Assembly: GCA_013152325.1 (NCBI GenBank)
Contig: JAADGN010000001.1
Span: 1 to 48,680, forward strand
Direction: 5' to 3'
DNA length: 48,680 nucleotides
Source of the DNA: Chloroflexota bacterium
GTDB lineage: Bacteria; Chloroflexota; Anaerolineae; Anaerolineales; Villigracilaceae
Part shown: positions 14,176-45,068 of the stretch, piece after piece
How the letters are laid out: each line of letters begins with the position of its first letter
How positions within the stretch are numbered: the stretch's first letter is position 1
The notes under the pieces: model-generated
Told to the model about the DNA's origin: nothing
The model's database searches: none
The model's input: only the letters and a program-made list of their open reading frames with translations
Translations under genes and position numbers: made by a program

Positions 14176-15642
14176 TCAGGCCAGTCCAACTTCAGCGTTG
14201 AACTCTTCGATCTGGGCATCGATCTCCGAGATCTGTTCCTGGACTTCCGTCCAGTAGTCCGTGCGATACCACATATCCTGAATCTCTTCGTAGGTCTTGC
14301 CCTGCTGTTCGACCCAGGTGAAGTACTTCAAGTTGTGGATACGGCGGCGATCCGTGTAACGCAGTTCGAGCAAATTGTCGGTATCCTGCCCCATCAGGTA
14401 ACGAGCAAAATCGGCGGCGGCATCCGTCTCAGAGTATTGGCCGAATTCCGCGTGCATTTCCTGCAGGCGTGACTGGTAGAGTTCCATCGAGTCGGTCAGC
14501 ACCGTCAACATAATGTCGTTCTCGCCCATCTCGTAATACTTGGCAGTCTTGATGGCTGTCAGCACGTTGGAGATGCCGGAGAAGCCCATCAGGTCGAGTT
14601 GTGAGACGATCCCTTCCGGCACGCCCTGCTCGACGAGATATTTGCGGCCCGCCGGTTCGTTGAACAGGCGCGACAGGTTGACCACGGCGTTATCGTCAAT
14701 CGCCACGACCATGTCGGTATTCTTCGAGTTGTGGATCCAAGGCACGTGCTTGTCGCCGATCCCCTCGATACGGTGTGCGCCGAAGCCGTTTTCGAGCAGC
14801 GTCGGGCACTGCAGCGCCTCGCTGGCGACGATCTTGCTGTCCGGGAAAAGCTGCTTCATGTAGTCGCCGCTGGCAATCGTTCCGGCGGAGCCAGTGGCGG
14901 AGGCGATGCCGCGATACCTGTCTTGCGGTCCCATGACCTGCTTGAGCACTTCTTCCATGGCGTGACCGGTGATCTCGTAATGCCACAGATAGTTGCCGAA
15001 TTCGTCGAACTGATTGAAGATCATCAGGTCTTCGCCCGAATTGCGCAGTTCCCAGCATTTATCGAAAATCTCTTTGACGTTCGATTCGCTGCCCGGTGTT
15101 TTGATCGTCTCACCGGCAATACTCGCCAGCCAGTCAAAGCGCTCTTTGGACATCCCTTCGGGCAAAATGGCGATGGACTCACAGGCCAGCAGCGCCGAAT
15201 CGTACGCCCCGCCGCGGCAGTAGTTGCCCGTCGAAGGCCAGACCGCCTTTTGGGTGGTCGGATCGAACTGACCCGTGACCAGCCGCGGCACAAGACAGCC
15301 GAACGCAGCCCCGACTTTATGCGCGCCGGTCGGGAACCATTTGCCCACCAGGACAATGATGCGTGCGTCCACGCCGGTCAGAGACTTGGGCAGTTCGAGG
15401 TAATTCACACCGCCAAACCCGCCGCCGCTGGCTTTCGGCTCATTGTGCCAGGTGATGCGGAACAGGTTGCGCGGGTGCAAATCCCACAAACCGATACTCG
15501 CCAGTTCTTCCTTGACCTTGTCCGAAATCAAAGAGGGGTCTTTCATTTGAGCAAAGGTAGGGATAATAATATTGCGCTCGCGGGCGCGGCGAATGGCGCG
15601 GGCGCGGCGGTCTTTCTGGATCGTCAAATCAATTGTGGACAT
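14176..15642 (-). CDS. Fold-type II PLP-dependent enzyme, cysteine synthase/lyase superfamily, unknown substrate
   Basis: 488 residues, longer than normal fold-type II enzymes (about 310-400). The PLP lysine is probably in TGAHKVGAAFG; the substrate-carboxylate loop is STGNYCRGGAYDS, and ASATGSAGTIASGD is the phosphate-binding glycine loop. It is not an obvious orthologue of 2,3-diaminopropionate ammonia-lyase (YgeX), cysteine synthase or threonine synthase. The N-terminal 70 residues (ARAIRRARERNIIIPTFAQM) and a highly acidic C-terminal helical tail of about 100 residues are extra. A perfect 17-base palindrome containing TTGTCAGACAA overlaps its predicted transcription start, as at the purine deaminase and formate-channel promoters. 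I infer an ammonia-lyase-type role in the same pathway; this is not shown. Confidence 0.85.
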   Translation of the reverse strand: MSTIDLTIQKDRRARAIRRARERNIIIPTFAQMKDPSLISDKVKEELASIGLWDLHPRNLFRITWHNEPKASGGGFGGVNYLELPKSLTGVDARIIVLVGKWFPTGAHKVGAAFGCLVPRLVTGQFDPTTQKAVWPSTGNYCRGGAYDSALLACESIAILPEGMSKERFDWLASIAGETIKTPGSESNVKEIFDKCWELRNSGEDLMIFNQFDEFGNYLWHYEITGHAMEEVLKQVMGPQDRYRGIASATGSAGTIASGDYMKQLFPDSKIVASEALQCPTLLENGFGAHRIEGIGDKHVPWIHNSKNTDMVVAIDDNAVVNLSRLFNEPAGRKYLVEQGVPEGIVSQLDLMGFSGISNVLTAIKTAKYYEMGENDIMLTVLTDSMELYQSRLQEMHAEFGQYSETDAAADFARYLMGQDTDNLLELRYTDRRRIHNLKYFTWVEQQGKTYEEIQDMWYRTDYWTEVQEQISEIDAQIEEFNAEVGLA

Positions 15643-15657
15643 AGAAATCTCCTGAGA

Positions 15658-15674
15658 AAGTTGTCAGACAACTT
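15658..15674. promoter_or_regulatory. TTGTCWGACAA operator at the PLP enzyme promoter
   Basis: AAGTTGTC-A-GACAACTT is a perfect 17-base palindrome centred on one A. It starts three bases after the -10 element of the PLP enzyme gene, covers the expected start point and ends 15 bases before the ATG. The core matches the operators at 39171, 39224 and 43946. Confidence 0.75.
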
Positions 15675-35116: not shown

Positions 35117-35839
35117 TTAATAACCCACCCGGCGCACCACATGGAAGTGGAAATAACCGGGCAGGAAATAACTACTTGAATGATCCACCACACGGCCGGA
35201 TTCAGCGTACAACTGCGAGACAAAGTGCAGCAGCACATCGCCGCGCTGAATTTCGAGCGCCTTGGCAACATCCGACCGCGCGCCGAGCGCGCTGACCGCT
35301 GTCCGGGCGACGTTCAGCGCCGGGTCGCCGCGCGCCAGCAAAAAGTCCAGCACCGAACCGGTGAATTGCGGGGATTCCAGATCGTCCGGATGCAGGATGC
35401 CCTGCGGCAGGGTATCTATCAGATAGGCCACCGGACGGTCATCGGCCTGCATCACGCGCCGGACACGAGTCAGAGGCGTCCCCAGCGGAACGTCCAGGAT
35501 GCCGGCCTGCTTCTCGTCCGCGAGGATCTGCGTCACATCCAGGTCGCTCGCCGAGACATCCAGATCGATGCGTTCGGCCAGCGTCTCGATACTCTCCAAC
35601 ACTTCCAGGCCGCTCTCCAAGACCGGCACCTGTCCAACGACGAACGTCCCCGCGCCCTGGCGGCGGCGGATCAAGCCCTGGGTCTCAAAGGTGCGCATGG
35701 CCTCGCGCAGCGTGGCGCGCGAGACGCCCAACTGTTTGGCCAGCTTCGGCTCGGAGGGCAAACGTTCTCCCGCCGGGGTAGCGGCGATCAGTTTACCCAG
35801 CTTGACTTGCAAGCGTTGAAAGGGTGTGTTTGCGAGCAT
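35117..35839 (-). CDS. GntR family regulator with UTRA effector domain (HutC subfamily)
   Basis: 240 residues. The winged helix-turn-helix is at residues 6-70: [63 protein letters not shown] ligand domain fills the rest and ends in the typical [20 protein letters not shown]. It starts one base after the adenine deaminase stop codon, so it is in the same operon. It is the best candidate for binding TTGTCWGACAA, which sits at the promoter of its own operon and two others. UTRA regulators usually sense small metabolites; a purine breakdown product is inferred. A caution: the operator spacing resembles FadR-type more than HutC-type sites. Confidence 0.94.
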
Positions 35840-39170: not shown

Positions 39171-39181
39171 TTGTCTGACAA
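39171..39181. promoter_or_regulatory. TTGTCWGACAA operator, downstream copy at the deaminase promoter
   Basis: TTGTCTGACAA, a perfect palindrome about a central base. It begins nine bases after the -10 element, just downstream of the expected start point. Confidence 0.75.
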
Positions 39182-39223: not shown

Positions 39224-39234
39224 TTGTCTGACAA
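39224..39234. promoter_or_regulatory. TTGTCWGACAA operator, upstream copy at the deaminase promoter
   Basis: A second TTGTCTGACAA, four bases upstream of the -35 element. Its centre is 53 bases from the other copy, about five helical turns. It overlaps one end of a 14-base direct repeat that borders the stem-loop element. Confidence 0.75.
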
Positions 39235-41787: not shown

Positions 41788-42666
41788 TTACTGATCCTGT
41801 ATCTCCGCGGCTCGGAGCGTGTTCTTCATCAGCATGGCAATCGTCATCGGGCCAACGCCGCCGGGAACGGGAGTAATATAACCGGCCACTTCTTTGACCT
41901 CATCAAAATTAACGTCACCGACCAGGCGATAGCCGCGCTTTCGGGTGGCATCAGGCTTGGAATTGATGCCCACATCGATGATCGCCGCGCCAGGTTTGAC
42001 CCAATCGCCGCGCACGAATTCCATCTTGCCAATCGCAGCAATGACGATGTCCGCCCGCCTGACCACCTCGGGGATATTTTGCGTGCGCGAGTGCACCACC
42101 GTCACCGTCGCATTTTCACGCACCAGCAGCAATGCCGCCGGCATGCCGACGATATTCGAGCGCCCCAACACGACCGCGTTCGCGCCTTCGATCTTGACGC
42201 CCGATTCTTTCAGCAGATGGATGCAGCCAAAAGGTGTACAGGGCACAAAGAGCGGTTCACGCCCCTTTTGCGCCAGACGGCCAATATTGATCGGGTGGAA
42301 ACCGTCCACATCTTTGGTAATGTCAATCGCCTGCAACACCTTCTCTTCGTCCAGGTGATCGGGCAGCGGCAACTGCACCAGAATGCCGTTCACCGTTGGG
42401 TCAGCGTTCAGCTCCCTGACCAGATTCTCCACTTCTTCCTGGGTCGAGTCGCTGGGCAGTGGATGATGGAAGGATTCCATGCCCAAGTCCGCACAGGCTT
42501 TCTGCTTCATGCGAACGTAGGTCGCCGAGTCCACACGCTCCCCGACCAGCACGGTCGCCAATCCAGGCTTGGACTTGCCGGCCGCAACGCGTGCCGCAAC
42601 AGCCGCGGCCACATCGTCCTTTACTTTTTGTGCAATCGCCTTGCCATCAATAAGTTGTGCACTCAT
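41788..42666 (-). CDS. folD: Bifunctional methylenetetrahydrofolate dehydrogenase / methenyltetrahydrofolate cyclohydrolase
   Basis: 292-residue FolD. It interconverts 5,10-methylene-, 5,10-methenyl- and 10-formyl-tetrahydrofolate. The active-site lysine is in SATYVRMKQKACADLG, with GILVQLPLPDHL, KDVDGFHPINIGRL, PCTPFGCIHLL, the dinucleotide loop VVLGRSNIVGMP and the C-terminal TPVPGGVGPMTIAMLMKNT all present. CAGGAGAG precedes the ATG. It lies downstream of the formate channel and RAM-domain genes on the same strand (gap of 114 bases to the latter). In purine-fermenting bacteria FolD processes one-carbon units from purine breakdown, so the placement may be functional. Confidence 0.98.
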   Translation of the reverse strand: MSAQLIDGKAIAQKVKDDVAAAVAARVAAGKSKPGLATVLVGERVDSATYVRMKQKACADLGMESFHHPLPSDSTQEEVENLVRELNADPTVNGILVQLPLPDHLDEEKVLQAIDITKDVDGFHPINIGRLAQKGREPLFVPCTPFGCIHLLKESGVKIEGANAVVLGRSNIVGMPAALLLVRENATVTVVHSRTQNIPEVVRRADIVIAAIGKMEFVRGDWVKPGAAIIDVGINSKPDATRKRGYRLVGDVNFDEVKEVAGYITPVPGGVGPMTIAMLMKNTLRAAEIQDQ

Positions 42667-42780: not shown

Positions 42781-43014
42781 CTACTCGGTATCTGCGGCCA
42801 AACAGGTGAGTGTATCCAGAACGCCCGGGATAGGTTGGATCTGCTGGTAAATCACGCGCCCAATATGTTTAATATCTTCCGCTTCAACGATGGCGACAGC
42901 ATCATAGGGGCCAAAGGTGAAATTGGCTTCGACAACACCTGCCACCCGTTTCAACTGGCGAACGACGTCACCGACTTCCCCGGTGCGAGCATTGATCAAG
43001 ACATATGCTTTCAT
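42781..43014 (-). CDS. Stand-alone Lrp/AsnC ligand-binding (RAM) domain protein
   Basis: 77-residue protein equal to the RAM (ACT-like) domain of Lrp/AsnC regulators, without a DNA-binding domain. AYVLINARTGEVGDVVRQLKRVAGVVEANFTFGPYDAVAIVEAED is the diagnostic beta-alpha-beta fold with the ligand-contact glycines. Stand-alone RAM proteins form decamers or octamers and bind amino acids; their cellular roles are poorly known. AAAGGA precedes the ATG. It lies 21 bases after the formate-channel stop and upstream of folD, so it may sense an amino acid for this operon. Confidence 0.92.
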   Translation of the reverse strand: MKAYVLINARTGEVGDVVRQLKRVAGVVEANFTFGPYDAVAIVEAEDIKHIGRVIYQQIQPIPGVLDTLTCLAADTE

Positions 43015-43035: not shown

Positions 43036-43881
43036 TTACTTGTCCTCAGAATTGCGCAAGAAAATCGCCCAATAGATCGCGGCCACAAAGATCGAACCGC
43101 CCAAAATATTGCCGATCGTGACGGGCAACAAGTTGTTGACGAAAAATGCACTCCACGTCAGCCCGGAGAGATCAAGCCCGGTGCCGGCGGCAAAGGCCGG
43201 ATCAAATGTCTTTATCACCAGGCCAATCGGAATAAAATACATATTCGCCACACTGTGTTCAAACCCGGCTGCCACAAAGGCCGTGATGGGAAAAATAATG
43301 GCCGCGATCTTATCCACCGTGCTGCGGGCGCTGAAGGTCAGCCACACAGCCAGACAAACCAGCGCGTTACAGAGCACTCCCAGCGCGACGGCCTGCCCAA
43401 ACCCCAAGGCGACTTTGCCATTGGCAATGCTCAAGGCCGTTTTCCCAATGCCGCCGCCCCCAAAGGTGTATTGCTGGCTCATAAAGACCAGGATCACCGT
43501 CGCGATAGAGCCGACAAAATTGCCAACGTAGACAATGCCCCAGTTGCGCAGCAAAGCCCTGGTAGTCACCTTTCCGCTGGCCCAGGCCATCACGATCAGG
43601 TTATTGCCCGTGAAGAGTTCCGCGCCGCCCACAATGACCAAAACCAGCCCCAGGCAGAACACCAGACCAACCAACAGCTTTGCCACGCCAAAGGGCAGAA
43701 CCCCGGATGCCCCGGTGGCGACGGTCGTAGCAAAAACGGCGCCCAAAGCGATGAATGCGCCAGCCAGCAGGGCCAGCGCGAACATCCGCAGGACAGATGC
43801 TTCCGCTTTGCGCACACCGATATACTCCGCGCGCCGCGCCATCTCTCCCGGAAGCAAGGCATCAATGCGTAATTCACTCAT
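43036..43881 (-). CDS. Formate/nitrite transporter family channel (FocA/NirC type)
   Basis: 281-residue FNT channel with six helices, forming a pentamer. GAELFTGNNLIVMAW is the first re-entrant (omega) loop signature, NWGIVYVGNFVGSIATVIL follows, and GFEHSVANMYFIPIGLVI with the central pore His is the second. Family members pass formate, nitrite, hydrosulfide or lactate; formate is likely here because folD is downstream. The ATG at 43881 is used because AAAAGGAG lies upstream and MSELRIDALLPGEMARRAEYIG is the usual start. Its promoter region holds a TTGTCTGACAA operator and two CRP/FNR-type boxes. Confidence 0.93.
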   Translation of the reverse strand: MSELRIDALLPGEMARRAEYIGVRKAEASVLRMFALALLAGAFIALGAVFATTVATGASGVLPFGVAKLLVGLVFCLGLVLVIVGGAELFTGNNLIVMAWASGKVTTRALLRNWGIVYVGNFVGSIATVILVFMSQQYTFGGGGIGKTALSIANGKVALGFGQAVALGVLCNALVCLAVWLTFSARSTVDKIAAIIFPITAFVAAGFEHSVANMYFIPIGLVIKTFDPAFAAGTGLDLSGLTWSAFFVNNLLPVTIGNILGGSIFVAAIYWAIFLRNSEDK

Positions 43882-43945: not shown

Positions 43946-43956
43946 TTGTCTGACAA
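43946..43956. promoter_or_regulatory. TTGTCWGACAA operator at the formate-channel promoter
   Basis: TTGTCTGACAA, identical to the two copies at the deaminase promoter, 64 bases upstream of the channel gene's ATG. A weak -10 candidate (TACCCT on the minus strand, 43961-43966) would place the start point inside it. Confidence 0.7.
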
Positions 43957-43988
43957 CAAGAGGGTACACCAAGTTTATCGACCCCATA

Positions 43989-44027
43989 AGTGATAATTTT
44001 CACATAATATTGTGACAACAATCACAA
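43989..44027. promoter_or_regulatory. Two tandem CRP/FNR-type boxes upstream of the formate-channel gene
   Basis: AGTGA-N6-TCACA at 43989-44004 and TTGTGA-N6-TCACAA at 44010-44027, the second a perfect match to the CRP half-site pair TGTGA-N6-TCACA. Their centres are 22 bases apart, two helical turns. If transcription starts near 43954-43955, they sit at about -41.5 and -63.5, the standard activator positions. No CRP or FNR gene is in the window. Confidence 0.7.
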
Positions 44028-44063: not shown

Positions 44064-45068
44064 CTAGGATGCATCGATGGTCAGCACCGCCTCACCGTTG
44101 AAGCGACTCTCTTTCATGTCGCGCAAGGCCTGGTTCGCATCCTTCAGCGGGTACAAATTCACCGTGGAACGGATGCCAATCTCCGCCGCCAATTGCAGGA
44201 ACTCCGCGCCGTCCTGATAGGTCGCATTCGCCACCGAGCGCAGCGTCCGCTCGCCGTAAATGGTCTGATACGGGAACGAGGGAATATCGCTCATGTGGAT
44301 GGCATTGATCGCGACCGTCCCACCGGGGCGCACAAGCTCCAGCGCCCGGACGGCCAACGCCCCTGCCGGAGCAAAGATCACCGCCCGGTCGAGCAACCTG
44401 CCCGGATCTTGACCTGCCACCCCCGCCCAGACCGCGCCCAAGCCCCGTGCGTGATCCTGGTGTCCCAACGAACGCGTGAACACCGATACGTCGCATCCCC
44501 AATGCCGCAGAACCTGGATGCACAGATGCGCGCTGGCCCCAAACCCGAACAGGCCGACATGCTCTCCCGGCTGAATATCCGCCTTTTTCAGCGAACGGTA
44601 GCCGACAATGCCCGCGCAGAGCAGCGGCGCGGCCTGCTCATCAGAAATGGCATCCGGGATGGGCAGCGCATAGCGCGCTTCAGCCAGCATGTACTCGGCA
44701 TAGCCGCCGTCCACGTGAAAGCCGGTGAACCGCGCCTGTGAGCAGAGGTTCTCCTCGCCGCGGCGGCAGAACTCACATTGACCGCAGGCCTCGTACAACC
44801 AGGGAACGCCCACCCGCGTCCCCAGCGCCGATTCCCTGCCGCCCTCCCCAACCGCATCGATCACGCCCACCACCTGATGCCCCGGCGTGACCGGCAATGC
44901 CGGCGGCTTGATGTCGCCTTCCGCGGTATGCAGGTCCGTGTGGCAGACGCCGCACACGTTGATTTTTATCCGCACCTGCCCCGGCCCGGGTTCGGGAGCG
45001 GATAGGTCAGCAGGTTGAATGGGATTGCGTTCAATGGAAGCCGGTTGATAAAGGCGCATTGCAAACAT
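44064..45068 (-). CDS. Zinc-dependent alcohol dehydrogenase (AdhP/AdhA type)
   Basis: 334-residue medium-chain dehydrogenase. Catalytic zinc ligands are in NVCGVCHTDLHTAEG and TPGHQVVGVID; structural zinc cysteines are in CGQCEFCRRGEENLC. The cofactor loop is GLFGFGASAHLC, a slight departure from the usual GxGxxG. The region DVSVFTRSLGHQDHARGLGAVWAG matches the AdhA-like branch that acts on ethanol or other primary alcohols. It may use NADP or NAD; sequence is not decisive. The start is the ATG at 45068 or 45059. It lies upstream of the formate-channel control region on the same strand, but 182 bases from that gene's start. Confidence 0.94.
   Translation of the reverse strand: MFAMRLYQPASIERNPIQPADLSAPEPGPGQVRIKINVCGVCHTDLHTAEGDIKPPALPVTPGHQVVGVIDAVGEGGRESALGTRVGVPWLYEACGQCEFCRRGEENLCSQARFTGFHVDGGYAEYMLAEARYALPIPDAISDEQAAPLLCAGIVGYRSLKKADIQPGEHVGLFGFGASAHLCIQVLRHWGCDVSVFTRSLGHQDHARGLGAVWAGVAGQDPGRLLDRAVIFAPAGALAVRALELVRPGGTVAINAIHMSDIPSFPYQTIYGERTLRSVANATYQDGAEFLQLAAEIGIRSTVNLYPLKDANQALRDMKESRFNGEAVLTIDAS

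Follow-up and report, generated by a model that had tools for sequence, protein, structure and literature searches.

A probable activator-dependent promoter with a candidate purine-regulator operator at a formate-channel operon of uncultured Chloroflexota

Class II CRP/FNR-dependent promoters, of which E. coli galP1 and the FNR-activated focA-pfl promoter are examples, have a TGTGA-type palindrome at about -41.5 and weak core elements. In S. aureus, the operator of Rex is TTGTGAAW4TTCACAA (PMC2883068). The same species provides a published warning of the motif ambiguity that we meet here: Rex has a motif in common with the Crp/Fnr protein ArcR, which bound several promoters carrying it in vitro without affecting transcription (PMC2883068). 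Operators of the GntR family have a GT...AC core, with the consensus NyGTM-N0-1-KACNy for FadR and NyGTMTAKACNy for HutC (PMC4494728). Literature searches on Rex with focA and on Anaerolineae with focA found nothing about the promoter described below.

The window that we analyzed, a stretch of 48,680 nucleotides, belongs to a 2.95-Mb genome assembly (G000), in which it is contig C21, and the nearest relatives of its focA gene are found in MAGs of Anaerolineales (Chloroflexota). On the minus strand, focA is followed by a gene for a small AsnC-type protein and then by folD (Table 1), and we propose that these three genes form a formate-export operon. Purine breakdown yields formate via folate-bound one-carbon units, and the product of an operon that includes folD would export formate from this source. 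As in E. coli focA-pfl, focA is predicted to be under anaerobic control by a CRP/FNR-family protein, but its operon partner here is folD and not pflB. The 182-bp gap between an alcohol dehydrogenase gene and the start of focA at 43881 contains two palindromes and a GntR-type operator; focA may also be transcribed in part by read-through from the alcohol dehydrogenase gene. All genome-wide counts given below come from pattern searches and fetched stretches.

Table 1. Features of the focA promoter region and of associated genes and operator copies in the window
Feature	Position	Strand	Evidence or remark
focA, formate/nitrite-family channel	43036..43881	-	PF01226, E=1e-77; TIGR04060, E=1e-81, slightly below the TIGR04060 cut-off
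Small AsnC/Lrp-type ligand-binding protein	42783..43014	- (focA strand)	Translation and weak NCBIfam matches
folD	41788..42666	-	NCBIfam
Zinc alcohol dehydrogenase gene	44064-45068	-	Upstream neighbour of focA
Distal palindrome TTGTGACAACAATCACAA	44010..44027		Centre 44018.5, about -63.5; sole exact match in the genome; 22-bp partner in 5/5 same-genus focA genomes
Proximal box, GTGA-N6-TCAC core plus TT of -35	43987..44004	-	Centre about -41.5; kept in the genus and in other families, with a fixed 23-nt gap to TAnnnT
Weak -35 position TTATGG	43984..43989	-	Overlaps the end of the box; 17-nt spacing to the -10; from sequence and spacing
-10 hexamer TACCCT	43961..43966	-	TAnnnT at the 23-nt gap, 22/72 box matches vs 0-5 elsewhere
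GntR-type operator TTGTCTGACAA	43946..43956		Over the predicted start (about 43955); 20 relatives have this 11-mer beside the purine operon
Operator copy upstream of 8-oxoguanine deaminase	39171..39181		Conserved in relatives
Second operator copy upstream of 8-oxoguanine deaminase	39224..39234		Paired copies in many relatives
Operator copy upstream of PLP-dependent enzyme gene (14176-15642)	15661..15671		In L296, operator before seemingly the same gene
GntR regulator with UTRA domain, proposed repressor	35117..35839	-	PF00392 and PF07702; orthologues in 75/100 relatives

An earlier note on this DNA had described two palindromic boxes with centres 22 bases apart next to the operator, and this arrangement was borne out: the proximal palindrome, AGTGATAATTTTCACA at 43989-44004, is centred at 43996.5, 22 bp from the centre of the distal one. 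The proximal box resembles TGTGA-N6-TCACA with one mismatch. Read as an 18-mer on the focA strand it is ATGTGAAAATTATCACTT, and the letters given in the note need correction in that its promoter-side end is TCACTT and not TCACAA, because the box adjoins the -35 position. TTGTGA-N6-TCACAA has a single exact match in the 2.95-Mb genome, the distal box; five further sites have one mismatch, some of which we took as chance (that on C48 lies inside a gene end), and a reversed control pattern had no match. All five same-genus genomes with focA (G001-G004, G007) have two boxes in the same place and exactly 22 bp apart, and a more distant relative (L036) also has the pair. The letters kept within the genus differ between the boxes: TTG...TCACAA in the distal box, which is degenerate in its left half in these five genomes, and GTGA...TCACTT in the proximal box.

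The placement of the proximal box relative to the core promoter is conserved. We collected 110 focA upstream regions from relatives, with some genomes represented twice, and used 91 non-redundant regions to count the gap between GTGA-N6-TCAC and TAnnnT. A gap of 23 nt was found for 22 of the 72 box matches, compared with 0-5 for each other gap from 0 to 59; the gap was first spotted by eye and then counted without selecting sequences. About two thirds of the 22 cases come from outside the genus, and the -10 is kept at this distance not only within the genus but also across several other families of the order. When the genus sequences were aligned on the proximal box, TAnnnT fell at one place in each, and the intervening sequence was poorly conserved. 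The TACCCT hexamer at 43966-43961 predicts a start near 43955, inside the operator, with the box centres near -41.5 and -63.5, or one base further upstream if the start is 43954. The conserved gap thus supports the positions that the earlier note had proposed. The weakness of both the -35 (TTATGG) and the -10 fits the expectation for an activator-dependent promoter, and we favour a class II, CRP/FNR-type assignment of the focA promoter on the basis of this placement. It differs from described class II promoters in having a second box just 22 bp upstream and a candidate operator of a purine GntR regulator over +1.

The reading of TTGTCTGACAA as an operator of the purine regulator holds, in that the sequence belongs to the adjacent purine-degradation cluster. 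The pattern TTGTCWGACAA occurs four times in the window, each time exactly, compared with 0.43 expected with one mismatch allowed, and no shuffled sequence reached four. Within 1.5 kb of gntR orthologues the operator was nearly absent, but widening the search to about 20 kb resolved the link: 33 exact copies, compared with 0.35 expected, were found in 363 kb surrounding the orthologous gntR genes of 20 relatives. All 20 of these gntR/purine loci have the sequence, and in 18 of them an exact copy is found at the reading frame of 8-oxoguanine deaminase or a short distance upstream of it. With up to one mismatch it is also present in 12 of 95 focA upstream regions, compared with 0.45 in shuffles. 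The sequence has the GT...AC core of FadR and HutC operators, and the cluster to which it is linked encodes a GntR protein. However, the cluster regulator is of the HutC/UTRA type, for which a 4-nt spacing between GT and AC is expected, whereas GT-CTG-AC has the 3-nt, FadR-type spacing, so the assignment of the operator to this protein rests on location. A different GntR protein may read TTGTCTGACAA.

The explanation that we consider best, with a probability of roughly two in three, is a sigma70-type, class II, activator-dependent promoter controlling the formate-export operon, with the operator of the purine GntR regulator over +1. A CRP/FNR-family protein would bind the proximal box, the end of which abuts the poor -35, and recruit RNA polymerase to the weak -10. 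The distal box lies 22 bp upstream on the same face of the helix, and most likely would bind a second dimer, making activation stronger or adjusting it. The GntR-type regulator would block initiation from TTGTCTGACAA until released by a ligand of the purine pathway. Formate export would then rise during purine degradation via folate-bound one-carbon units, provided that the CRP/FNR protein is active. Energy status and purine use thus probably both bear on formate release, although what binds at each site, which way each effect goes, and which ligands act are read from DNA sequence, as is the logic expressed in the earlier note as export "only when both signals agree".

The module at the focA promoter also occurs at other genes. 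The full module (box, 23 nt, TAnnnT) gave 24 matches in 8 genomes, compared with 4 for a reversed control. Orthologous targets recurred for icd, which encodes isocitrate dehydrogenase (G000 and G007), and for an Rrf2-type regulator (G000 and G004); other targets were ArsR-led octahaem-cytochrome, sulfide-quinone-reductase, and TusA operons and Fur-like genes. The functions of the target genes were read from their sequences, without a family-library scan. The module looks like the mark of a CRP/FNR-type class II regulon of energy metabolism that comprises icd, the Rrf2 regulator, and genes of anaerobic respiration and sulfur metabolism. We found no module near the genome's own rex and CRP genes that would indicate autoregulation, and a match on C98, which lies inside a gene, was taken as chance. 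Three further sites were observed in G000. A nirS-like gene has TTGTGACTTATATCACAG (G000:C31:23122-23139, L011) with an extended -10, TGCTAGAAA, one base closer. At G000:C31:19081-19123 (L236, L250) a class II module has TTGTCAGACAT between the box and the -10, and no convincing gene lies downstream on that strand. Upstream of a formate-THF ligase gene, TTGTGAAAAGGGTGACAA (G000:C44:2277-2294, L012) was rejected as a class II site; it lies between a -35, TTGCCA, and a -10, GACAAT, which is a repressor-like position.

The genome encodes two CRP/FNR-family regulators with an R-E-x3-R recognition helix, whose nearest structures are GlxR and M. tuberculosis CRP, and we infer that the protein at the proximal box is of this family. 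One or the other candidate (at least 50% identity) is present in 8 of the 11 genomes with the module, and neither is present in all. Three genomes (G063, G072, and G076) carry the module without close orthologues of either candidate, and G076 has no HTH_Crp_2 match above the cut-off; the co-occurrence of either candidate with the module is not decisive. In two relatives (L253, G001:C68; L257, G066:C96), tandem CRP/FNR paralogues are encoded beside genes for small membrane proteins. In G066, TTGTGATACTAATCACAA and a near match to it lie among the tandem paralogue genes, and these palindromes have outer TT/AA.

The earlier note had not considered Rex. TTGTGA-N6-TCACAA is equally a Rex consensus, which the distal box fits exactly, and one clear Rex is encoded in the genome, so the palindrome alone does not support the activation by a CRP/FNR-family protein that the note had proposed; the placement does, and the note's reading as a whole is partly supported. 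If both palindromes were Rex operators, Rex-NAD+ would repress focA and high NADH would release it, beside repression by the purine regulator. Half-sites and spacing are shared with the S. aureus operators, and the S. aureus case, with ArcR binding the motif in vitro to no transcriptional effect, also speaks for this possibility. The core of the proximal box, GTGAAAATTATCAC, is found unchanged in Rex-type sites of L070 and L084. In at least about 20 other Anaerolineales focA promoters, including that of G029, a genome with nearly no CRP/FNR match, the palindrome directly follows a strong TATACT and lies over +1. Co-occurrence of Rex with the box is uninformative, because Rex is present in 95 of 100 relatives. 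In contrast to the Rex-type layout of these relatives, in which the operator lies over or downstream of the core promoter, the boxes here precede the -10 at a fixed phase, the proximal one abuts the -35, and the core elements are weak. The proximal box ends in TCACTT, the centre of the distal box is not A/T-only as in the S. aureus operators, and the same module precedes icd and the Rrf2 regulator. We therefore regard control of both boxes by Rex as unlikely.

It is less probable still that each box has a protein of its own (for example, a CRP/FNR protein proximally and either Rex or a second CRP/FNR paralogue distally); the different letters kept in the two boxes and the palindromes with outer TT/AA beside the CRP-family genes of G066 would agree with this, but the comparison of letters rests on six genus sequences only. 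A pair of overlapping class II promoters offset by 22 bp, with one -10 per box, is very improbable: TA follows the distal box by 23 nt in the genus and in L036, and the full TAnnnT does so in some regions (L031 and L036 were counted, others read by eye), but the hexamer of this genome, TATGGG, lacks the final T, and the box end together with the -35 edge would account equally well for the conserved TTA.

The same palindrome thus occurs in activator and repressor positions, which means that it cannot by itself name its protein, and for the focA promoter in the window the placement favours an activator. TATACT followed by TTGTGA-N6-TCACAA over +1 was seen in the focA upstream regions L058, L060, L062-L066, L068, L070, L072-L075, L077, L078, L080, L084, L090, L094, L104, L117, and L258, a repressor geometry for which Rex would be the simplest reading. 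The focA promoter of L067 combines a class II-type box upstream with a separate Rex-type palindrome downstream, indicating that the two positions are distinct inputs. In L117, TATAAT precedes a GntR operator and a Rex-type palindrome that stand one after the other. A third layout (L039, L041, L046, L048, L051, and L071) has a full -35, TTGCCG, and a -10, with one box centred at about -58.5, at a constant distance; five of these six regions have the purine operator over +1. We suggest tentatively, at somewhat less than even odds, that Anaerolineales focA genes use one palindrome with two logics, as a Rex operator over +1 or as a CRP/FNR class II site, with L067 as an intermediate that has both and with the purine operator accompanying either layout (as in L117).

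These results give a concrete, position-anchored prediction for the control of formate release in uncultured Chloroflexota, and would link formate export to purine degradation. They also point to a CRP/FNR-type regulon (icd, the Rrf2 regulator, and sulfur and cytochrome genes) of which we found no description. To assign a TTGTGA-N6-TCACAA sequence to Rex or to CRP/FNR, one needs to know where it lies with respect to the -10. If one palindrome does serve two logics, the focA promoters of the order would provide a natural series for repression turning into activation.
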